NCBI GenBank assembly: GCA_028874215.1
Contig: JAPPLF010000093.1
Location: 1 to 44,269, forward strand
Direction of reading: 5' to 3'
DNA length: 44,269 nt
Source: Acidobacteriota bacterium
GTDB taxonomy: Bacteria; Acidobacteriota; UBA6911; RPQK01; JAJDTT01
A program made the position numbers and the translations under genes. Under the pieces are notes generated by a model that searched no databases, was not told the origin of the DNA, and saw nothing but the letters and a program-made list of their open reading frames with translations. Shown here one piece after another: positions 26,221-37,158 of this stretch. The first letter of the stretch is position 1. Every line of letters starts with the position of its first letter.

Positions 26221-27405
26221 ATGGACACCCCACTGACCGACGCGGCGTGGCCGGCCGTCATTGGAGCCATCCTGGCCGCGGTCTGGCTGGCCGGAGCATG
26301 GCACCTTTCCAACCGGATCCGCCGCCGGGTCCTGGAGCCGGCGGCCCGGGGAGACACGCGGCCCCTCGAGGTGTTGGAGGTCGAGTCGGATCGCGTGACT
26401 TTGGGAGTCCTCCCGGAGACAGGCCGGAGCCGCCGCTGGCGTCAGGAGGGCCTCTGGGGTCTGCGTTGGCCGGAGGGTTACGCCCAGGCCGGAAGGATCC
26501 TGAATCTGAGGAGTCGGCAGGTCACTCGATGCCTCCGTCTTCTGCATGGTGACCTGGCGCCCGGCACCCGCGTGAGGCTCACCAGCTTCGCCTTTCCCGA
26601 CGACCCGGGCGATGGATTCGGGCTGCCGGTCCGACCGCTCCGATTCCACTCTCCACTGGGCCGATTCCCCGCCTGGTTGGTCCCCGGTTCCCGCTCCACC
26701 TGGGTCATCTTCGTCCACGGAAAGCGGGCCGCACCGCCCAGCGGCGCTCTCCGTTCCTACCCCCTGCTGAAGGTGGTGGCGGACCTGGGATTTCCCGGCC
26801 TGGTCATCTCGTATCGAAACGATCCGGAGGCCGAGCCCGCCCCGGACGGTCTCCACTGGTACGGACTCACGGAGTGGGAGGATCTGGAAGGAGCCGCCCG
26901 CCATGCCTTGGAGTCCGGGGCCGAAAAGCTAATCCTGGTCGGTTACAGCATGGGCGGGTGCGTCGTCATGAGCTTCCTGCGGCAATCTGATTTGGCTCCA
27001 TCCGTCCGTGGAGTCATTCTGGACTCGCCGGTCCTGGACCTGGAAGCCACATTGAAATTCGCCGCCCGCAACCAAGGGTATCCCGGAATCTTCTACCACG
27101 CGGCGAAGACCCTGGCTCGAGCGCGTTTCGGGATTCCTTGGAGGAAGTTGAACTACCTCCGCGACACGGGATATTTGCATGCTCCCACGTTGGTTTTCCA
27201 TGGAGACGCGGACACCCTCGTTCCACTCCGAACCAGCCGACAGCTCACCCGGTCCCGCCCGGATCTGGTCCGGTGCGTGGAGGTCCCCGGCGCCACCCAC
27301 GGGAGGGCATGGAACTTGGACCCGCACCGTTACGAGGAAATCACCCGGGAGTTCCTGGAGTCCGTAGCGAGCGGCCAACTCCTGTCAAGGACTGTGAGGA
27401 GGTGA
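26221..27405 (+). CDS. Membrane-anchored alpha/beta hydrolase
   Basis: The 394-residue protein begins with a single hydrophobic helix (AVIGAILAAVWLAGAWHL) that should anchor it to the membrane. The hydrolase fold follows: HGKRAAPPSG, nucleophile elbow GYSMGGC, acid in FHGDADTLVP and His in GATHGRAW. The domain between about 55 and 150 (a beta-rich cap-like part before the fold) has no clear parallel. It lies 53 bases after the CcmH-like gene and is probably co-transcribed. Likely an esterase, lipase or peptidase; substrate not known. Its 3' end runs into a GGAGGTGACAGTCCCC repeat, where the convergent truncated gene also stops. Confidence 0.85.
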   Translation: MDTPLTDAAWPAVIGAILAAVWLAGAWHLSNRIRRRVLEPAARGDTRPLEVLEVESDRVTLGVLPETGRSRRWRQEGLWGLRWPEGYAQAGRILNLRSRQVTRCLRLLHGDLAPGTRVRLTSFAFPDDPGDGFGLPVRPLRFHSPLGRFPAWLVPGSRSTWVIFVHGKRAAPPSGALRSYPLLKVVADLGFPGLVISYRNDPEAEPAPDGLHWYGLTEWEDLEGAARHALESGAEKLILVGYSMGGCVVMSFLRQSDLAPSVRGVILDSPVLDLEATLKFAARNQGYPGIFYHAAKTLARARFGIPWRKLNYLRDTGYLHAPTLVFHGDADTLVPLRTSRQLTRSRPDLVRCVEVPGATHGRAWNLDPHRYEEITREFLESVASGQLLSRTVRR

Positions 27406-27777
27406 CAGTCCCCTTCTCCCGAGGATGCGCCATATCAACAGGACGTTGACCAGATGCAACAGCAGGTTGACGACGTGATAACCCAGTGGATTCAGCTCCC
27501 AAAGCTTGTGGTCCAACCAGAAACTCGCACAGACGACGGGCCAATCGTGCCCTTCTTTCTTGATGTCGGACGGGGAGAACCAGATGTTCCAGAGCCCGGA
27601 CCTATTGTGCACCACCGGTTCTTCTACGAAGATCACGTCGTCCCAGACGAATCCCGCATCAAGCACCGGCAGGTAACTGGCGATGACGAGGAGGCCGAAC
27701 GCCAGAGCCCGGCGGCTCAACCAACGGCCGGGGCGTCTATCTTCGGCACGGGGTGCGAATCGCCTCTTCTCAGACAT
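27385..27777 (-). pseudogene. Truncated membrane glycosyltransferase (PMT / TPR-glycosyltransferase N-terminus)
   Basis: The 130-residue product matches the start of large PMT/TMTC-like mannosyltransferases: a transmembrane helix (LAFGLLVIASYLPVLDA), then the signature FVWDDVIFVEEPVVHNRSGLWNIWFSP, then SFWLDHKLWELNPLGYHVVNLLLHLVNVLLIWRILGRRG. In this family the WDD acidic pair near the first loop is conserved and the protein continues for several hundred residues. Here the frame runs into the GAGGTGACAGTCCCC-type repeat at about 27400 and stops, so only the first helices survive. It is probably dead. A repeat inserted or recombined at this point looks like the cause. Confidence 0.7.
27397..27425. 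repeat. Copy of the GAGGAGGTGACAGTCCCCTTCTC repeat
   Basis: Reads GAGGAGGTGACAGTCCCC then TTCTCCCGAGG and is similar to 28762-28798 (GAGAGGAGGTGACTGCCCCC then TTCTCTC). It coincides with the 3' end of the alpha/beta hydrolase and the break of the glycosyltransferase fragment. Confidence 0.75.
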
Positions 27778-27991: not shown

Positions 27992-28360
27992 TCACCGCGT
28001 TGAAGTCAACGAAACATCGAGCCTCACGTGATCGTAAGGCACCCGGGGTACCAGCCTCCCACGCTCTCCGTGTCGCAATTCTACGAGCCCGTATCGAGAC
28101 ATCGTCTTCATGGTTCGCGAAAGGTTCGACTTGCTTCGTCCAGACATCTCCGCGAGCTCCGTGAGCGAACGAGGTTGCTCTCGGGCAATCAGTTCCAGAA
28201 GATGCCTGTTGTGCTCGGAGAGCAATTTCGCAAAGCTCTCGATCGAGGTGAACCACACCTTCGGCTCATCCTTCGCGGGCGTGTACTCACCACGGGCAAT
28301 GGCCAGGGTGCGCGCCTTCATCTGGTCGTAACCGGCAATCCCGATCTCTAGTGTCTTCAT
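27992..28360 (-). CDS. TumA-like HTH antitoxin (MarR-like fold)
   Basis: Likely the antitoxin and autorepressor of a toxin-antitoxin pair. The roughly 122-residue protein starts MKTLEIGIAGYDQMKARTLAIARGEY, continues VWFTSIESFAKLLSEHNRHLLELIA, then the winged helix PRSLTELAEMSGRSKSNLSRTMKTMSRYGLVEL, and ends with a basic wing (ERGRLVPRVPY). This matches the HTH antitoxin of TumE/TumA pairs, as I recall it. I chose ATG 28360 because AGGAGG lies about nine bases upstream; a longer opening at 28405 lies in the toxin gene. The start overlaps the toxin stop by four bases (ATGA), the usual coupling. The gene itself is intact. Confidence 0.8.
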   Translation of the reverse strand: MKTLEIGIAGYDQMKARTLAIARGEYTPAKDEPKVWFTSIESFAKLLSEHNRHLLELIAREQPRSLTELAEMSGRSKSNLSRTMKTMSRYGLVELRHGERGRLVPRVPYDHVRLDVSLTSTR

Positions 28361-28728
28361 GGAATTGAGCCTCCTTCTCCAAGAACCTGGTCCACTTCTT
28401 TCCAAAAATCCTCGAGGAGCGTCGCTGCGTCCTTGAACTCATAAGGCCGGATCTTGCGCAGCCGATGCCGATGGTCACGCTCTGCCCGTCGACGCCCGCC
28501 CGGGCCAGGCCGATCCCTAACCGGGTGCGCATTATCGAATCCAACCAATCTGGCGCCATCCGGCGCGTGCAGTGTCTAAGAGTATCGGAGGCCGTGCGGT
28601 CGTTCGGGCGTCACCTCGGTCCGCATGACAACGAACTTCACCCAATGCCCCGTGTCGTCCACAAACAGTGTCTCGCCGTGAAGGTCGAGAAGGGTATCCA
28701 GTCCGGGGTCTCGGTCCGGCGTCGTCAT
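28357..28728 (-). pseudogene. TumE-like toxin interrupted by an in-frame amber codon
   Basis: A single reading frame from ATG 28728 to the stop at 28357 is broken only by TAG at 28576-28578 (codon 51). Before it: TPERPHGLRYS; after it: TLHAPDGARLVGFDNAH, then DHRHRLRKIRPYEFKDAATLLEDFWKEVDQVLGEGG. TumE-type proteins have HGLKYSLTLH at this place, so one base change (TTG to TAG) would explain the stop. The remaining 123-codon length fits the family (about 120). Readthrough, suppression or a sequencing error are alternatives. The antitoxin downstream is intact, a common pattern when a toxin is inactivated first. Confidence 0.75.
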
Positions 28729-28735
28729 CAAGTAA

Positions 28736-28761: not shown

Positions 28762-28798
28762 CACGGGAGAGGAGGTGACTGCCCCCTTCTCTCGCCCT
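28762..28798. repeat. Copy of the GAGAGGAGGTGACTGCCCCC repeat
   Basis: GGGAGAGGAGGTGACTGCCC followed by CCTTCTCTCGCCC can fold back on itself (GAGAGG with CTCTC). It is close in sequence to the repeats at 27397-27425 and 17996-18061, and lies directly upstream of the toxin-antitoxin operator. Confidence 0.75.
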
Positions 28799-28904: not shown

Positions 28905-30134
28905 ATGGTGAAACCAATAGCGCGATCCCCATCCATCAACCGCCGAATGTTTTTCCAAAGTGCGAAGGCAGCCGGTACGACTGCATTGACGGCTTCGCTA
29001 TTCGGACAACGATACAGGCCGATCGATGCCGGCAAGCAGTTGCGGATCGGTGTGGTGGGCGGCGGATTCGGCGCCGCGTTTCCCTGGCATCGGCATCCCA
29101 ACTGCAAGGTGACCGCGGTCGCCGATCTCAGGGAGGACCGCCGAAAAAGGCTGGAAGAGCGTTTCGAGTGCTCCAATGCCCATGCCGATTTCCGCGCCAT
29201 GCTCAAGGACCCCGCAGTGGATGCCGTCGCCATCTTCACCGGAGCGCCCCGTCACGTTCCCCACTGCGTGGAGGTCATGGAGTCCGGCCGCCATGTCATC
29301 AGCGCGGTTCCGGCCGCCATCAGCTTGAAACAGTGCCAGGAGCTTCTGGAGGCCGTCAAAAAAACCGGTCAGATCTACATGATGGCTGAAACCAGCTGCT
29401 TTCACCCAGCCACCATGACGGCCCGCAGACTGAGAAAGGAAGGCAGGTTCGGGAGGATCTATTACACCCAGGGAGACTACATCCATAACCACGGCACCTA
29501 CCTGGCGAAGGGGGAGATGCCGGAGTATCTGGAGCGAATGTTCTTTCACGAAGGTCGGCGGACTTGGCGCTATGGCAATGCTCAAGGCCTCTATATCACC
29601 CATGCCAGCGGTCCGGTCATTTATGTGACCGGCGAGAGCCTGGTCGAGGTCGCGGCGGTCGGAACGCCATTGGACCATCCGTTCTACAAGGAGAACCGGT
29701 ACGGCAACCCGTTCTTGAACACCACCTTCTTCTTCAAAACCTCGGGTGGAAACTCCTCGCGAATCAACATCCACTGGTGGACTTCCGCTCCCGGCCGGGA
29801 AGGAGCGGATTTCTTTGGGACCGAGATGTCGTTGTTCGAGAGGTGGAAAGGGCTGCGCCCTTCCGCTTACGTGACCCGTCCTGATTCGGAACCCGAACTG
29901 TTGCGGGCGGACCACTCCGCAGAGCTGCCGCCGTCACTGCGGAACGTTGAGGGGCATGGAGGCTCCCATCCCTTCATCATTCATGAGTTCGTCTCGGCCT
30001 GCCTGGAGCAGCGGCCTCCAGTGGTCGATGTCCACCAGGCCCTGTCCTACACTGCGCCCGGAATCGTAGGATTCCACTCGGCACTGAAGGGTGGAGACTG
30101 GTTGAAGATTCCCGATTTCGGACCCGTCAGTTAG
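28905..30134 (+). CDS. Tat-exported Gfo/Idh/MocA-family oxidoreductase
   Basis: 409-residue NAD(P)-dependent oxidoreductase probably exported by the Tat system: the N-terminus has NRRMFFQSAKAAG followed by a hydrophobic stretch. The Rossmann start is IGVVGGGFGAAF, then TAVADLREDRRKRLEERF; the pattern PHCVEVMESGRHVISAVPAA and AETSCFHPATM are usual for the family. The C-terminal domain is a beta-sheet region with VIYVTGESLVEV. AGGAAGGACG precedes the ATG. Such periplasmic MocA proteins are common in Acidobacteriota and Planctomycetota; typical substrates are sugars or inositols. The usual catalytic Lys-Pro is replaced by an AVPAA segment, which may matter for activity. Substrate not assigned. 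Confidence 0.88.
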   Translation: MVKPIARSPSINRRMFFQSAKAAGTTALTASLFGQRYRPIDAGKQLRIGVVGGGFGAAFPWHRHPNCKVTAVADLREDRRKRLEERFECSNAHADFRAMLKDPAVDAVAIFTGAPRHVPHCVEVMESGRHVISAVPAAISLKQCQELLEAVKKTGQIYMMAETSCFHPATMTARRLRKEGRFGRIYYTQGDYIHNHGTYLAKGEMPEYLERMFFHEGRRTWRYGNAQGLYITHASGPVIYVTGESLVEVAAVGTPLDHPFYKENRYGNPFLNTTFFFKTSGGNSSRINIHWWTSAPGREGADFFGTEMSLFERWKGLRPSAYVTRPDSEPELLRADHSAELPPSLRNVEGHGGSHPFIIHEFVSACLEQRPPVVDVHQALSYTAPGIVGFHSALKGGDWLKIPDFGPVS

Positions 30135-30525
30135 CCGTTCCCGGTGGACGCGGTGGCTTTCTGGACTCGCGCGGCGAGACTAAGTGATGAACCCTTATCC
30201 ATCTCCCTCCCCTAGTCTATTCCTACGCTCTCTGTGCCGATCTTGTCGAGAGGAAGTTACTGTCACTTTCGCCTTTGGATTTATTTCGCACTGGTTCGGA
30301 TGGGATCGGTTTTTGGAAACGTTTCTGGCCGACGATCCGACTCGACACGATAGGCACTCTTGATCATAATAAACTTCATGAGTTACCCAATAACAGAGGG
30401 AGCATCCTCCACCGCATTGTTAACAGGTCAGTGAAAAGATCTGAGCAGCGGCATGGATCGCATTTTTAAAAAAGAGCACACTCCTGTTGGTACCTGCATT
30501 ACAAGTTTCGGGATTGGAGGTAGAA
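30135..30525. other. AT-richer gene-free stretch before the GmrSD-type gene
   Basis: No convincing gene. An open frame at 30275-30469 has no ribosome site and no recognisable motif. Base composition becomes visibly AT-richer here, marking the left side of the accessory island. The next gene has a strong GGAGG site. Confidence 0.6.
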
Positions 30526-32196
30526 ATGAACGCCGGTGAAGTCATATTCCAGAAGTTGTTAGATGGGAAGATCCAGTATCGGATCCCATTGTTTCAGCGC
30601 ACATACAATTGGCGTGAGGAGCAGTGGAAACAACTCTGGCAGGATCTAATGAGAATATACTCAATGGATACACGTCGAAAGCACTTCGTGGGCTCCATAG
30701 TAACCTATCCAATCCATGGATTGCCTGGAGATGTAAATCAACACGTAATGATAGATGGCCAGCAGAGAATTACAACTCTTTTGATACTTCTTGGCGTCAT
30801 TCGTGACCATGCACACCAAGCGCCTGAAAAATGGCCTGGATTACCGGATGAGATTCGGAGCACGTGCCTGATAAACGAGTTTGCTGAAGATCCAGAGGAG
30901 CGGATCAAGCTAATGCCCAGTCGGAGAGATCGAGAACCGTTTGATGATCTTATAAGTAACAGTCGCATCCTCGATGGCACAAAACAGGTTGCGAAGGCTT
31001 GGCAATACTTCGATCGAAAGTTGCGCCGTGGTGACAACAATGGGAATTCAATTGATCTGAAGAAATTGAAGATTTGCGTTACTGATCGCCTCGATATAGT
31101 CAGCATTGCACTTGACTCAAGCGATAATCCAAACAGAATCTTTGAAAGCCTAAATTATACAGGTATGCCACTGACGGCATCTGACCTTATCCGCAACTAC
31201 TTGTTCATGAATATTCGAGATGTGAATAGACAGGATAGCGCCTACGACAAGTATTGGTATCCGATGCAGGAAAGGCTTGGCCGGTATCTGGATGATTTTT
31301 TCTGGCGGTATTTGATGATGGATGGCAGCCTACCTCGCAATAATAGCAAGGATATTTTCGACGGCGTTCGTGACTTAATAGGACAACAACCCACAGAGGA
31401 TCAAACCGTAAATGCGTTACGACAATTCAACGTATTCTCGCGCTACTACGCTCAACTTGCCGAAGTGGATACGTCGGGCTTAACGACTGCGACGGTAGAA
31501 CGGATACACCGACTGAATCAGTGGCAAGTTGACGTAGCATATCCGTTTCTCATGAAGTCACTAGACCACATTGGTTCATCTATCAAGGAACATGATGTTC
31601 TTGAAGTTATGCGAATGATTGAGTCGTTCGTAGTCCGTCGCGCGGCATGTAGTATTCCGACAAACAGTTTGCGACGGTACTTTTCTCAGATGGCAGCAGG
31701 CGTGGACTTTAAGAACTTTATTGCATCTTCGAAAGAATATCTTTCCAAAAAAGGTTGGATATGGCCATCGGACGACAGATTCCGTGAAGGATTCTTGCAG
31801 TTCCAAGTTTACAACAGAACTAGATTGTCACGCGCCAATTTGATTCTTTGGTCATTGGAACGAGCATTCGAGCACAAAGAAACCCCGGCGCGTACAGATA
31901 AAATCGAAATAGAACATATCATGCCGCAAACTCTTACTGCAGAGTGGATAGAAGCACTTGGGCCGAAATTTATCGACATACATGACCGATGGCTTCACAC
32001 AATCGGTAATTTGACTTTGTCGGCGTATAATGCTGAATTAAGCAACATGATGTTCGCTGAAAAAAGGGAAATTCTTATTGCTTCTAATTTTTCGTTAAAC
32101 TCGTCTCTGATATCATTGCGCAAGTGGGATGAAGAAATGATCGAAGAAAGAGGTCGGGTGTTTTCTGAGATGGCAGTGATAATATGGCCACGATAA
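30526..32196 (+). CDS. GmrSD-type (DUF262/DUF1524) modification-dependent restriction protein
   Basis: 556-residue protein expected to cut modified DNA as a stand-alone type IV enzyme. The N-terminal DUF262 part has YRIPLFQRTYNWREEQW (residues 18-34) and the NTP-linked motif IDGQQRITTLL (about 76-86); the C-terminal DUF1524 part has the HNH-like IEIEHIMPQTL and IGNLTL (about 455-500). Fusion of both parts in one chain is the usual single-protein GmrSD form, which acts mainly on sugar-modified phage DNA. GGAGG lies five bases before ATG 30526, so I reject the longer opening at 30487. The gene is strikingly AT-richer than its neighbours, a sign of recent transfer. No partner gene is adjacent. 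Confidence 0.9.
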   Translation: MNAGEVIFQKLLDGKIQYRIPLFQRTYNWREEQWKQLWQDLMRIYSMDTRRKHFVGSIVTYPIHGLPGDVNQHVMIDGQQRITTLLILLGVIRDHAHQAPEKWPGLPDEIRSTCLINEFAEDPEERIKLMPSRRDREPFDDLISNSRILDGTKQVAKAWQYFDRKLRRGDNNGNSIDLKKLKICVTDRLDIVSIALDSSDNPNRIFESLNYTGMPLTASDLIRNYLFMNIRDVNRQDSAYDKYWYPMQERLGRYLDDFFWRYLMMDGSLPRNNSKDIFDGVRDLIGQQPTEDQTVNALRQFNVFSRYYAQLAEVDTSGLTTATVERIHRLNQWQVDVAYPFLMKSLDHIGSSIKEHDVLEVMRMIESFVVRRAACSIPTNSLRRYFSQMAAGVDFKNFIASSKEYLSKKGWIWPSDDRFREGFLQFQVYNRTRLSRANLILWSLERAFEHKETPARTDKIEIEHIMPQTLTAEWIEALGPKFIDIHDRWLHTIGNLTLSAYNAELSNMMFAEKREILIASNFSLNSSLISLRKWDEEMIEERGRVFSEMAVIIWPR

Positions 32197-32674
32197 GCCT
32201 TTGTGGGTCAGTTATTTGTGGTTGTGGGCCGTTTGGGAGCCAGATCACCGTGTTACTCTCCTCCCTAGCGATCCAACTTTACGCCCCGCCCACGCAGCGA
32301 GGAACGAGGATGGCCCCCATTGCAGTGCGCCACCCTCTTGCTGGTCACAGGGTCAGTATATATTTCGTTCGCCTATTTGGGGCAGAAATTCGGATTGGGA
32401 CTTCAGTAGGTATCGCCGACCCGTTGCTTCGGCCCGCTTGTTGAATCCTCGGCATTGCAATGACGCTCGAAGATCCTCGCTACCATGGAATCGGCGACGT
32501 GGAACGGTGTGAGATAGAGGCCGTGGGCTTCGGATTGTTGATCGGAGTATTGAGATACTAACTACTCTCCGATTCCGTAGGATACGAGCCAACCCGCCCG
32601 CTGGCAGACGACCGAGATGTTAATCCCTTGATCGGATAAAATTCATCATATCACCGAATACTGAAGAAATCAAA
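32197..32674. other. Gene-free stretch after the restriction gene
   Basis: I see no gene. An inverted repeat, ATCGGAGTA (32541-32549) against TACTCTCCGAT (32563-32573), could form a hairpin, but no T-run follows, so terminator function is uncertain. An 8-base AAATCAAA at 32667-32674 is the left target duplication of the element that follows. Confidence 0.6.
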
Positions 32675-32698
32675 GGGGATTGTACAGTTGACTAGGCA
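32675..32698. repeat. Left terminal inverted repeat
   Basis: 24 bases starting with four G; the eighth base is G here and A in the other end. Preceded by AAATCAAA. Confidence 0.9.
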
Positions 32699-33024
32699 AA
32701 CCTCCCCTTTTTCCCCGTTTTCCACCCAATCAAGTCGAATGGGTTGCCGGGCCCGAGTCGAAAACCGTTCCAGCCCAAACATCTTACAGAATTGATAGCG
32801 AGTAGTAACTGGAAGCAATCTCCGGAAGCGAGCGAATCGAACCCGTACCTGCCCACATTCGAGACGACCAAGACTGCGCCGATAAACAGGTGAAGAACAG
32901 TCCCCGAGGTCCCCGTGGACAGGGCAGCCGGGTCGAACGGGAAGTTTGCAGCTTCAAGTCCTGCCGGGGGTGGCCCCGTCATCGATCAGGCATTTGATAT
33001 TGGAGTGTTAAGGGGCTCTGCCGT

Positions 33025-33258
33025 TCACTCGTCTCTCTTGAGAGTAGCGGACAGGTAGAGCAGGGCCCGTCCAAGCTCTTCAGCTGTTCTCGCGTCCAGG
33101 TAAGCCCAACCGTAGGAGGCACTTCCTTCTCGTGCTGGTTCTCCGATTGAGAGGACGCATTTCCCGTTCTCGTTTGGCGGATTGATCCAGAATACTCGAT
33201 GCTTTTCTTCGGGCTGACCTGCACCTGGATCGACTTTGATCGGACTGTGTAGACTCAT
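33025..33258 (-). CDS. Small unknown protein carried by the element
   Basis: 77-residue product, start MSLHSPIKVDPGAGQPEEK, with a GGGGGAG ribosome site a few bases before ATG 33258. It is soluble and mixed in charge, with HRVFWINPPNE, SYGWAYLDARTAEELGRALLYLS. The last helix is regular. I recognise no family. Its good ribosome site and position inside the element suggest a real cargo gene. A second open frame (32692-32982) exists on the same strand but has no supporting site. Confidence 0.6.
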   Translation of the reverse strand: MSLHSPIKVDPGAGQPEEKHRVFWINPPNENGKCVLSIGEPAREGSASYGWAYLDARTAEELGRALLYLSATLKRDE

Positions 33259-33499
33259 GGCACTCCCCCTTCAAGCAAGTAAGATACTGTCATACACCAA
33301 ATTCCTCAAATTCCTGAAAATACTGCGATGGACCTGAAATAAAATGTGTGTGATGGAGGGGACATGTACTGTTCGTCGAGGACCGAGCAACGCTCGATAA
33401 CGACCGCTTGAGCTTGGTAGCGGAGGACTCGTCGCTGGCTCTCAGTGAGCGAACCTTTCCCCACCCCCTCCATCCTACACCGTGATGGCGGAGGGTTGT

Positions 33500-33574
33500 T
33501 AGAGCCTGTGGGTCTCGAGCCCACGTTTCCCGATCCAGGGTCGGGAGTCTTCGCCGGACTAAAACCAAGGCCCC
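33500..33574 (-). other. tRNA-like sequence inside the element (possible tRNA pseudogene)
   Basis: On the minus strand a 75-base segment folds as a standard cloverleaf: acceptor GGGGCCT with AGGCTCT (seven pairs, two G-U), U8, a D-arm GTTT/AGAC with a GG in its loop, anticodon arm CCCGA/TCGGG with a 7-base loop, a 4-base variable loop, T-arm GTGGG/CCCAC with TCGA kept in its loop, and discriminator A. The third acceptor pair is G-U, as in tRNA-Ala. Oddities: base 33 is C not U, loop position 54 is C, the first pair is G-U, one extra base in the D-loop, and no encoded CCA. The anticodon loop is CCCTGGA. A competing fold pairs GTTAGAG (33498-33504) with CTCTAAC (33592-33598). Confidence 0.4.
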
Positions 33575-33655
33575 TCGGTCTTCCGCCGTCACTCTAACAC
33601 CTTGTCAGGGGTCGCTGGCACTCTTGTTTTTTTCCCAATGGAGAGGAGGGACGAA

Positions 33656-33877
33656 ATGCCCAGAAAGCCACGCAACACTACTCGTTACAATGTCTGGCGG
33701 AACAGAAATATTGTTCACACGGGCATCACGGATGACCCCGAACGAAGGCAACAGGAACACCGTAGGGAGTTTGGAGAAAATGCCAACCTAAGACCGGTTG
33801 GGCCAAAGGTGACGCGAGAGTCTGCTTTGAACTGGGAAGAGGAGCAACGGAGGAAAGGCAAGCCCACTGGACCGTGA
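33656..33877 (+). CDS. GIY-YIG-like mini-protein
   Basis: 73-residue protein starting MPRKPRNTTRYNVWRNRNIV and continuing HTGITDDPERRQQEHRREFG, then RPVGPKVTRESALNWEEEQRRKGKPTGP. The pattern (aromatic pair, G-I-T-D-x-P-x-R-R-x-x-E-H, later VGPKVTRESAxxWEE) is a compact GIY-YIG nuclease-like fold seen in short bacterial and archaeal proteins, which often end in the same GKPTGP-like tail, as I recall. It is the shortest form of the fold and may be a regulator or toxin rather than a full nuclease. GGAGGG sits five bases before ATG 33656. It lies inside the inverted-repeat element, so it is probably its cargo. Confidence 0.75.
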   Translation: MPRKPRNTTRYNVWRNRNIVHTGITDDPERRQQEHRREFGENANLRPVGPKVTRESALNWEEEQRRKGKPTGP

Positions 33878-33894
33878 GGGTCACGGTTTAGGAG

Positions 33895-33918
33895 TGCCTA
33901 GTCAACTGTATAATCCCC
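33895..33918. repeat. Right terminal inverted repeat
   Basis: Reverse complement of the left end with one difference; followed by the AAATCAAA target duplication. Confidence 0.9.
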
Positions 33919-33934
33919 AAATCAAAGCCCTCGG

Positions 33935-36900
33935 TCATTCGTCAGAACTAAGTTTGTCGACCCTCGGCCTCAGTGACGGGTGGAGCATCATCTCCTCGTA
34001 GACCTCCTCCCCGTAACCGATGCCGGCGCTCTCCGTGCCGACCTCGTACTGATACTTGAGGATGAAGGTGATCAGGTCGGCCATCTCCTGGTGGTTGACG
34101 TTCTCTTCCAGACCCTCGGGCATAAGGGAGTTGGTCGTGGCCCGGATCTCCTTGATGTTCTTCCGCAACAGGGTGTTGCTCAGGTCGTCCCCCTCCACCA
34201 GCGTCACGCTCGTCGCCGTCTCATCCCGGAGCAGGCCGGTGTAGAGCCCGCCTTTCAGGTCCGTCGCAACGTACTGCAGGTATTGGGGTTCCACGAAACG
34301 GTTGGGATCCAGGATGTTCACCAGGAGCGACTCGGGGTCCTTCTCCGTGCCGCGGATCAGGTTCGGTCCGATGGGATGTTCGCGGGATGAGAGCCGGTGG
34401 CACTTGATGCATTCCCGGCGGTAGACGGCCTCGCCCCGTTTGTGGTCGCCGGTCAGGGACAAGCTGGCCTGAAAATCGGCAAGCGCTTCCTGACGAGACT
34501 CCAGTTGCTCGGACCCCAGGAGCCGGACCGCCTGCTCCCGGATGGACTCGTCGTCATGGTTCAGGAGGAGCTCCCGGCGCTTGGCGTCGATCTGGTTGGC
34601 TGCCACCGACTCCTCCGAGACGGCCTGAAGCAGGCCCTCGGTCCATTCCTGTCGAGCGAAGAGGGTCTCCAGGATCTTGCTCCGGGTTCGGGGAGAATGC
34701 GTCATCCAGTCCTTGAGGAGGATGCCGGGTATTTCCGGGCTGTCGAAGCCCGCCAAGGCGTCGATGGCCGCGATTTGGAGATCCTGGGGCTGTAGGGGAT
34801 CCACCAGGGAGGCCAGTGCGGGCTTCACCCGATTCAGCCGATCATGGCGAAGCAGCCGGATGGATTGGAGCCGGTCCTCCAAAGAAGCGGCCTCGTCAGC
34901 GGCGATCTTGCCCGCGCGCTCCATGTGGGCCGTGATCATGGAAAGGGCAGAGGCGGGGAGTCTTCGCAGACCCAAAAGCGAGCCGCCTGAATGGGCCAGT
35001 CCCTCGGCCATGCCGATGATGATCTCCTGCCGTGCGGACGGTCTGGCGGCCAGCACCGGATTGGCGGCCAAGGCGCCCAGGACCCTCCTCAACTCCCGTG
35101 CGCGGTTCCGGGCACCCACGGCCCGCGCGAGCCGGGACAACCACTGGACCGATTCGGGTTGGGCGAGAAACGTTTCCTCGTTCGCCAACCGGGCGAACAG
35201 TTGGTGGGGAAAATCGGCACAGGAACTCAGGACGGCATTCCGGACCCAGAAGTCGCCGGTATCCATCCGCGAGATCCGGACCAGTGCGGGAAGGGACCGC
35301 TGCCCCCTCACCTCGCCCAGACTCAGGGCAACCTGGAACCGGACCCGGATTTCTGGGTCCTGGGCCAGATCCGACACCTTCCGGAACAGGGCGCGGGAAC
35401 GATTCAAACGGGATTCGGCCAGTCGGACGGCATGGACCCGGACCCCGGCTTCGGCATCCCCGAGACCCCGCAGCAGATCCCGGTCCCGGAGTGAGCCGAG
35501 CCCCTGCAAGGACCAGAGAGCATGCATCCGGGCCAGGGGACGAGAACTTTCTCTGAGAAGCCGCCGCAGGAGGGGCGCCGCCGACCGGTCCTCCCGCTCG
35601 CGGATCAACCGGTGGGCCGTCGCCCGCCACCAGCCCCCGTCGTGCTCGAGATGGGAGACCAACTCCTGGATCGTCGCCTCGCCCAACCGGGGCGGAGGCG
35701 GCGACACGAAGCCCGGGGGCGCCAGGCGATAGATGCGTCCCCGGTCTCTTCCGCTGGTGAAATCCAGGTGCTTCATCACGCGTTCGGGGACATGGGTCGC
35801 CTCGATGAGCTCCCGGGACATGTCCAGAAAGTAGACGGTTCCGTCCGGCGCGTTGACCGCATTGACCGGCCGGAACCAGGTGTCGGTGGAACGGACGAAC
35901 TCCGAGTTCTCCCCCTCCCCCCGCTCGGAGCGGAAGCTGACTCCGTCGTCGATGAGAACCCGGCGGTGGATCAGGTTGCCCGTGTTGGCGCCCATGAAGT
36001 AGCTGCCGCGATACTTCTCCGGGTAGGCGTGGCCCGTGTACATGGTCACCCCCGAGCCGGCCGTCAGGTAGTCGTGGCCGACGCCGGCGCTTCGGGAGTA
36101 CGACCCGGCGAAGATGCGCCGAGCCTGCCGAATGGTGCGCCAGCGCTCCACGGGGCTGATCTTGTAGAGGCGGGTCTGCCCCTGGACCAGGGGCTTCACC
36201 TGGTTGGCGCCCGGTCCCAGCCACCGGTGCAAATCGTAGAAAAGGTGGGGGTTCCGTTCCAGGTAGCGGGCCGGCAACACCACGTGGCGTCCCGGCATCC
36301 CCTGGTTGCAGACGAAGCGGTTGAACCATTCGTCGAAGGCGTGCCCGAACTGGAAGGTCTGGGTGGTGGTCTCGAACCGGCCGCTCACGGGATCGAAACG
36401 GTAATCCCGGGCGCCCAGGGAGACCGGAGGAGCGTCCGGATTCTCCAGAGACCGGATCTCGCCGGCGTTTCCGGAGGCGATCCCATAGATCCAATGGTCC
36501 ACTCCCATGATGATGTTGTTCATCATCTGCTGCTCGTTCTGGTGTCCGAAGCCCGAGTAGACCTTCTTCCGGATGTCGGCCTTGTTGTCGCCGTCGGTGT
36601 CCTTGAGGTACCAGATGTCGGGAGGAGCGGTGACGTAGACCCCTCCGTTCCAGACCGTCACTCCGGTGGGCCACAACAACTCGTCGGCAAAGATGTGGCT
36701 CCGGTCCAGCGTGCCGTCGCCGTCGGTGTCCTCCAGCAGGCGGACCACTCCGATGGGCTTCTCGCCCGGTCCCGGCTGGTACGGGTAGTCCCGCATCTCG
36801 GCCACGTAGAGGCGGCCGTTCTCGTCGAATGCGGCCGCCACCGGGTCGTTCACGAGAGGCTCATGGGCCACCATCTCCATGCGGAATCCATCGACGGCCT

Positions 36901-37102
36901 CGAACGATTCCAGGGCTTCCTGCGGCTCCTTAGGCGGGATCGGCTGGAGATACTCGGCCAGGGCCGCTTCGTCACGGGAGATGTCCAGGATCTTCCGGAG
37001 CGGATCCCGCGTATCCTCTTCACCCCCGCATCCCAGGAGCGGGATGAGGATTGCTCCCGCCACGAAACGTCCAGCCGTTCGGAGACACAGATTCAACTCC
37101 AT
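33935..37102 (-). CDS. Secreted lipoprotein: dehydrogenase-like propeller, HEAT repeats and C-terminal cytochrome c domain
   Basis: About 1,055 residues. The N-terminus (LLGCGG) is a lipobox. A soluble-sugar-dehydrogenase-like propeller follows: FRMEMVAHEPLVNDPVAAAFDENGRLYVAEM, LLEDTDGDGTLDR, FGHAFDEWFNRFVCNQG. The middle is HEAT-like helical repeats. The C-terminal 150 residues are the PVC-type haem domain, with haem-binding CIKCH (about residue 898) and the distal Met in NSLMPEGL. This matches TIGR02604-type membrane-bound dehydrogenases of Planctomycetota, Verrucomicrobiota and Acidobacteriota. The best start is ATG 37102, which has GGAG eight bases upstream; TTG 37117 and ATG 37108 are closer to the ribosome site. 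The gene follows the M19 gene by about 56 bases. Substrate unknown. Confidence 0.85.
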   Translation of the reverse strand: MELNLCLRTAGRFVAGAILIPLLGCGGEEDTRDPLRKILDISRDEAALAEYLQPIPPKEPQEALESFEAVDGFRMEMVAHEPLVNDPVAAAFDENGRLYVAEMRDYPYQPGPGEKPIGVVRLLEDTDGDGTLDRSHIFADELLWPTGVTVWNGGVYVTAPPDIWYLKDTDGDNKADIRKKVYSGFGHQNEQQMMNNIIMGVDHWIYGIASGNAGEIRSLENPDAPPVSLGARDYRFDPVSGRFETTTQTFQFGHAFDEWFNRFVCNQGMPGRHVVLPARYLERNPHLFYDLHRWLGPGANQVKPLVQGQTRLYKISPVERWRTIRQARRIFAGSYSRSAGVGHDYLTAGSGVTMYTGHAYPEKYRGSYFMGANTGNLIHRRVLIDDGVSFRSERGEGENSEFVRSTDTWFRPVNAVNAPDGTVYFLDMSRELIEATHVPERVMKHLDFTSGRDRGRIYRLAPPGFVSPPPPRLGEATIQELVSHLEHDGGWWRATAHRLIREREDRSAAPLLRRLLRESSRPLARMHALWSLQGLGSLRDRDLLRGLGDAEAGVRVHAVRLAESRLNRSRALFRKVSDLAQDPEIRVRFQVALSLGEVRGQRSLPALVRISRMDTGDFWVRNAVLSSCADFPHQLFARLANEETFLAQPESVQWLSRLARAVGARNRARELRRVLGALAANPVLAARPSARQEIIIGMAEGLAHSGGSLLGLRRLPASALSMITAHMERAGKIAADEAASLEDRLQSIRLLRHDRLNRVKPALASLVDPLQPQDLQIAAIDALAGFDSPEIPGILLKDWMTHSPRTRSKILETLFARQEWTEGLLQAVSEESVAANQIDAKRRELLLNHDDESIREQAVRLLGSEQLESRQEALADFQASLSLTGDHKRGEAVYRRECIKCHRLSSREHPIGPNLIRGTEKDPESLLVNILDPNRFVEPQYLQYVATDLKGGLYTGLLRDETATSVTLVEGDDLSNTLLRKNIKEIRATTNSLMPEGLEENVNHQEMADLITFILKYQYEVGTESAGIGYGEEVYEEMMLHPSLRPRVDKLSSDE

Positions 37103-37158
37103 CGTCATTTCTCCCAATGCCGCCGAGCCCGTCCGGACGGCCGCGGCTCAATTTCGAA

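Follow-up and report, generated by a model that had tools for sequence, protein, structure and literature searches.

A complete single-chain GmrSD-family gene

The window, by which we mean the whole 44,269-nucleotide stretch of DNA analysed here, carries on its forward strand an open frame at 30526–32196 that encodes a single-chain GmrSD-family protein of 556 aa. The frame starts with an ATG at 30526, 5 nt downstream of a GGAGG at 30516–30520 (+) that reads as a likely ribosome binding site, and alignments of 10 and of 39 proteins show M1 to be all but invariant. Membership of the GmrSD family, proposed in a first-pass annotation of this DNA, is borne out by Pfam matches to both halves of the chain: GmrSD_N covers residues 9–227 (E 2.1e-37; 129.6 bits against a curated cut-off of 33.2), placing the GmrS (DUF262) domain at 30550–31206 (+), and GmrSD_C covers residues 413–547 (E 6.8e-26; 91.2 bits against a curated cut-off of 23), placing the GmrD (DUF1524, HNH) domain at 31762–32166 (+). 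When the protein is compared with the family motif list given in PMC4619093, all three GmrS motifs are found: QR as Q24-R25, (I/V)DGQQR as IDGQQR at I76-R81, and FxxxN as FESLN at F206-N210. In the GmrD domain, (E/D)H(I/L/V)xPQ is present exactly, as IEHIMPQ with E463-H464. Near matches are found for L(G/A)NLxLLxxxN (IGNLTLSAYN, ending in N502), for NxxFxxKK (NMMFAEKR, with K513) and for the final W...R...W motif (WDEEMIEERGRVFSEMAVIIW). The core residues of the motifs are invariant or nearly so in both alignments; the alignment of 39 proteins shows no variation in DGQQR, E463, G494, N495 and L496 and very little in H464, N502 and K513.

An AlphaFold2 model of the protein has a mean pLDDT of 90.8 and a pTM of 0.85, with no segment below 50 pLDDT, and all seven chains that Foldseek returned at E <= 0.001 are DndI, SspE or BrxU. 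Among the PADLOC models of defence proteins, the best are Orf5 (PDLC02693; E 3.2e-156) and HEC-06 (E 1e-76), both matching over their full length, and mREase_IV also matches (E 4.7e-34). A literature search for the system behind the name Orf5 returned no match, and NCBIfam gave zero matches to the protein at E <= 0.01. The gene is a complete single-chain GmrSD-family (DUF262–DUF1524) member, an ordinary representative of a well-known kind of bacterial nuclease directed against viruses, and the find by itself changes no view of the family.

Relatives of the protein are widespread: a genome scan returned at least 566 encoded relatives in many phyla, with the closest homologue among the matches listed (the best 80 of at least 566) about 39% identical. 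Matches also occur in 229 plasmid records (best 36% identity) and in 10 phage records; a scan of viral contigs with the GmrSD protein gave no match. In a tree of 39 homologues, the phyla are mixed and the window protein sits on a long branch without well-supported close kin, as expected for genes that have moved between lineages. Chain length varies among the 38 homologues measured: 26 have 653–873 aa, one has 608 aa and 11 end at 550–597 aa like the window protein, and a gene truncated at its 3' end, considered as a candidate, was rejected on account of the latter.

The insertion site and its surroundings

The genome of origin (G000; 5.7 Mb, 97.5% complete, 113 contigs) was compared at this site with three draft genomes of the same genus, G001 to G003, which comprise 60–670 contigs with a contamination of 2–8%. 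To the left of the GmrSD gene lies a Gfo/Idh/MocA oxidoreductase gene (28905–30134, +; Pfam) and to the right a gene for a DUF7133/HEAT/cytochrome c protein (33935–37117, −), both conserved in all three relatives, with a blastn identity of about 88–91% over the Gfo/Idh stretches and 89–95% over the DUF7133 stretches. Homology to the relatives (blastn against L021, L022 and L023, their corresponding loci) is lost at about 30153–30180 and regained at 33965, within the 3' end of the DUF7133 gene, so that the whole acquired segment, a GmrSD block plus a nested element, spans 30181–33964. The insert thus reaches into the DUF7133 gene, and the final residues of the window's DUF7133 protein are unlike those in all three relatives. 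The DNA between 30150 and 33965 finds a match only in its own genome among the four genus members (E <= 0.001) and none in the three relatives. The first-pass annotation had drawn an accessory island from 28.7 to 34 kb; its accessory nature is upheld by the conserved flanks and the missing insert in 3/3 same-genus genomes, and its boundaries move to about 30180 and 33965. It had also proposed a comparison of presence and absence among relatives, with a gene at the same place in all of them and of ordinary composition as the outcome that would speak against acquisition; in the three same-genus genomes, this is not what was found.

What occupies the site differs from genome to genome. G001 has a nearly empty site, with only 164 bp between the two flanking homologous stretches on a single contig. 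The other two genomes carry foreign DNA unrelated to the window insert, about 3.6 kb in G003 and about 4.1 kb in G002. The G003 insert (L021, 8695–11932) has genes of defence type: an AAA_21/AAA_15 ATPase whose best PADLOC match is NsnB, an Abi_alpha protein and a PIN match below its cut-off. The G002 insert (L022, 11900–15667) has an IS630-like transposase, identified by eye, alongside other ORFs; the two of these checked against Pfam matched no family. Homologues of the GmrSD protein do occur in G002 (one 35% identical, one 26% identical and a further, partial one), all on other contigs, and any match to the protein is found in 5 of the 40 relatives searched, G000 counted. From these sequence comparisons we infer that the GmrSD gene was gained horizontally by the lineage, into a variable site between the Gfo/Idh and DUF7133 genes. 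The find shows a single-chain GmrSD as exchangeable cargo of a variable place in the chromosome, within a genus of which four genomes were compared.

Two further observations concern the same region in the relatives. In both G003 and G002, the site insert includes partial duplicates of the Gfo/Idh gene. Upstream of a toxin-antitoxin pair described below, G002 also carries two BrxC/BrxD-like genes and a helicase-like frame (L022, 3771–9644; by eye), a stretch of about 6.6 kb where the matching place in the window measures about 0.6 kb.

The mobile element that the first-pass annotation had noticed in the segment is indeed there. An inverted-repeat search delimits an element of 1,244 bp at 32675–33918 with 29-nt inverted repeats at its ends (90% complementary), and the sequence reads as an 8-bp direct repeat, AAATCAAA, on either side, the left target-site duplication at 32667–32674 (+) and the right one at 33919–33926 (+). 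Inverted repeats with an 8-bp duplication are the signature of a transposed element; no transposase was recognised in it. The element sits nested within the segment, whose assembly therefore took two steps or more. For the two small ORFs of the element, a search of 60 relatives gave no homologue in the 59 besides the own genome, and Pfam gave no family at E <= 0.1; among plasmids, the element has no match. The 24-nt core of its inverted repeat has no further copy in the four genomes at up to three mismatches, and 16 nt of the repeat, scanned against viral contigs, hit three of them, by a rough estimate fewer than expected by chance. Within the element lies a tRNA-Gln(CTG)-like gene (33500–33574, −; ARAGORN and Rfam alignment) that scores 36.2 bits against an Rfam cut-off of 29 and, as read from the Rfam alignment, has a C before the anticodon in place of the usual U. 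A tRNA search of L021–L023 found none.

The AT-richer composition that had first drawn attention to the gene is confirmed: the gene has a GC content of 44.4%, whereas 736 overlapping 1,671-nt windows taken elsewhere in the 44-kb window average 65.1% (s.d. 2.0, minimum 58.4), and its GC3 is 46.6%, with 72.6% and 83.4% for the genes on either side. The reading of this deviation as the mark of a recent gain calls for caution. Of 38 homologues from other organisms, 32 fall below the GC of their locus, two equal it and four exceed it, as measured on loci of up to about 11.7 kb that include the gene and hence on a scale different from that of the 44-kb window. Because so many homologues are AT-richer too, low GC alone is weak evidence of acquisition; it is partly a trait of the GmrSD family, and neither dates the acquisition nor proves its recency.

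Beyond the conserved Gfo/Idh gene, at 27992–28734 (−), lies a pair consisting of a TumE-like toxin and an HTH antitoxin, which we take to be TumA. The antitoxin frame is open and the toxin frame is broken by an in-frame stop; G002 has the pair too, with an uninterrupted toxin frame that matches Pfam TumE. It had been counted as part of the island's context, and we rejected it as such, as it is located outside the insert, across Gfo/Idh, and common to G002. Further left, an ORF at 27385–27777 (−) encodes by eye the 130-aa start of a membrane-like protein and ends at a copy, at 27400, of the palindrome discussed in the next section, possibly a gene cut short by rearrangement. Promoter-like and terminator-like sites occur at chance level only. 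The interrupted toxin frame, the odd anticodon loop of the tRNA-like gene and the seemingly shortened ORF are signs of decay nearby and would fit a GmrSD gene that is itself a decaying relic without function. Its frame, however, is open over 556 codons with the motif residues intact, its chain end agrees with those of 11 of the 38 homologues and its model shows no segment of very low pLDDT (<50), and we hold this reading to be extremely improbable.

A dispersed palindromic repeat near several rearrangement points

What struck us as a more curious observation than the GmrSD gene is a palindrome near several of the rearrangement points. The imperfect palindrome AGGTGACTGTCCCCTTCTC (19–25 nt with a 19-nt core) is dispersed genome-wide in all four genus members, with 26, 33, 54 and 19 hits in G000, G001, G002 and G003, respectively, and none for the reversed pattern in any of them; the counts allow up to two mismatches on both strands, so that a near-palindromic copy may be counted on each strand. 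Of 54 pairs of neighbouring copies spaced by 30 bp to 10 kb, 51 share one orientation, a count that leaves out single-copy contigs and three overlapping double-strand hits. In the window, copies lie at 27400–27418 and 28773–28791 (+), with weaker ones at 2.9 and 18.0 kb; in the relatives, copies lie just after Gfo/Idh in all three and near the insert starts of G002 and G003. A candidate decayed copy at 30182 differs by 5 edits, a likeness equalled by 12 of 583 random 80-bp stretches. Three of about five homology breakpoints (27379/27393, 28833 and 30153/30180) fall within about 60 bp of a palindrome or the decayed copy, and those at 27992 and 33965 have no copy nearby.

Three explanations of the palindrome come into question: a REP-type element (of the RAYT type), a repeat with strand bias or a hotspot of recombination. 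Each of the four genomes has two Y1_Tnp matches, and the eight loci around them (1.9–3.3 kb) hold no copy at up to two mismatches. At three mismatches, L125 has one copy and L131 (563–1337, contig C11 of G000) has three identical copies; the latter adjoin a Y1_Tnp match in the own genome and are a possible source of the repeat. One might go further and picture a cassette-like system, in which palindromes mark the points where accessory and defence genes are inserted, exchanged or truncated, the GmrSD gene having entered at the decayed copy next to Gfo/Idh; this we consider doubtful, with odds of success that we would call long. Elsewhere in the own genome, at a contig end (L118, 1–13580, contig C3), a series of accessory genes has same-orientation palindromes in between; by eye, they include an AAA ATPase pair, an AbiV-like gene and a Schlafen-AlbA-like gene.

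Partners, putative mechanism and known systems

The first-pass annotation had supposed that the island lost a defence partner or never had one. We looked at the question by clustering 758 ORFs (80 aa or longer) from the window and 87 loci with a homologue, with flanks of up to 5 kb, some of them ended by contig ends, so that a partner shorter than 80 aa or beyond 5 kb is missed. The most frequent neighbours, by eye, are type I-like genes (HsdS-like in 11, HsdR-like in 11 and HsdM-like in 8 of the 87 loci), and every other neighbour family, the DUF262 family aside, is found in at most 5 of 87. A methyltransferase, a subunit S and a helicase are annotated beside one homologue. Within the window insert, no ORF lying wholly inside exceeds 122 aa apart from the GmrSD gene, too short for a methyltransferase; the lack of a cognate methyltransferase in the insert fits a type IV restriction enzyme, and among the homologues only a minority have type I-like neighbours. 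According to PMC4619093, the fused GmrSD form predominates, and PMC4437046 describes purified single-chain Eco94GmrSD as active. Because a single chain of this kind is active and the neighbours of the 87 loci are mostly unshared, a missing partner is no anomaly; the lost partner was accordingly rejected, the chain being complete and no non-type-I family occurring in more than 5 of the 87 loci among the ORFs of 80 aa or more within 5 kb.

The prominence of type I-like neighbours raises another reading, in which the protein would be an RloF-like type I accessory that was inserted without its partner and may be inactive or cooperate with a type I system encoded at another place in the genome. PMC4619093 mentions GmrSD homologues annotated as RloF, the nearest same-genus homologue, in G002, adjoins an N6_Mtase match, and the own genome has six such matches. 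However, at least 57 of the 87 loci, within their flanks of up to 5 kb, lack all three type I-like families, and the activity of purified Eco94GmrSD likewise argues against a need for them, making this reading very unlikely in our judgement. Separately, another DUF262 protein, only distantly related (about 20% identity), is encoded in the own genome (L002, 415–2229, −, contig C35), where it shares its contig with an N6_Mtase match.

Taken together, we favour, at a probability of roughly 0.78, a complete and self-sufficient nuclease of the GmrSD family that was acquired horizontally into a variable site and whose activity, role in restriction and substrate we infer from the family. PMC10952713 and PMC11662687 describe a family mechanism in which nucleotide binding and hydrolysis by DUF262 at DGQQR, together with DNA sensing, control the HNH domain. 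By extension, the N-terminal DUF262 domain of the window protein would bind and hydrolyse nucleotide at DGQQR and read a chemical feature of the DNA; this reading would gate the C-terminal HNH domain, which would then nick or cut the DNA, and the nuclease would presumably restrict phage. DUF262–DUF1524 members are described there as reading glc-5hmC, 5hmC, 5mC or phosphorothioate, and a modified cytosine is the most likely substrate. Sugar-modified phage DNA, the target that the first-pass annotation assumed in proposing a phage challenge, is one candidate among several. Transfer of function from homologues is weak because the closest one found is only about 39% identical. If the target were identified, it would be one more substrate for a family that reads several DNA modifications.

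The nearest solved structure is DndI, which raises the rival possibility that the protein is a DndI- or SspE-like effector whose DUF262 domain would read phosphorothioate in the host DNA, supplied by a phosphorothioate module elsewhere in the genome. In sequence as in fold, DndI, which reads phosphorothioate, comes closer to the protein than does the cytosine-modification enzyme BrxU: DndI (PDB 9JFL) is the best match over nearly the whole chain, by profile (E 7.6e-43) as well as by fold (E 6.8e-15), and an aromatic residue, F23, aligns with Y25 of DndI, the tyrosine of the phosphorothioate-sensing hydrophobic patch (PMC11662687). However, F23 is not diagnostic, as the FQR/YQR segment is common to nearly all of the family, and even the DndI fold match is moderate (16% identity, TM 0.58, rmsd 9.0). 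DndI is coupled to iscS-dndBCDE according to PMC11662687, whereas the own genome has no match to DndC (TIGR03183, E <= 0.001), in a search without a positive control, as 0 of 14 control genomes pass the cut-off. No dnd or ssp family was recognised by eye among the recurrent neighbours of the 87 homologues. We regard a phosphorothioate-reading effector as unlikely, and return to the self-sufficient nuclease as the preferred reading.

Finally, we would like to place the window protein among the known systems that it resembles. SspE (PDB 6JIV, 7DRS and 7DRR) shares with it the two domains and the DGQQR motif. It is longer, however, with 771 aa against 556 aa, acts with SspABCD according to PMC10952713, and has a fold match of TM 0.32–0.48 by query length. 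BrxU (PDB 7P9K) belongs to the same two-domain family and, according to PMC10952713, is likewise found in a defence island; it is the weakest structural match (E 1.2e-4), and it is BREX-associated, whereas the eight proteins encoded at 25.7–37.1 kb around the window gene include no BREX family in Pfam. The likeness to the type IV restriction enzymes Eco94GmrSD and EcoCT596 GmrSD, the former acting on glc-5hmC and 5hmC, is drawn from published descriptions. They too are single chains with DUF262 followed by DUF1524, and the catalytic residues D507-H508-N522 of Eco94GmrSD (PMC4437046) follow the same order of acidic residue, histidine and asparagine as E463-H464...N502 in the window protein.
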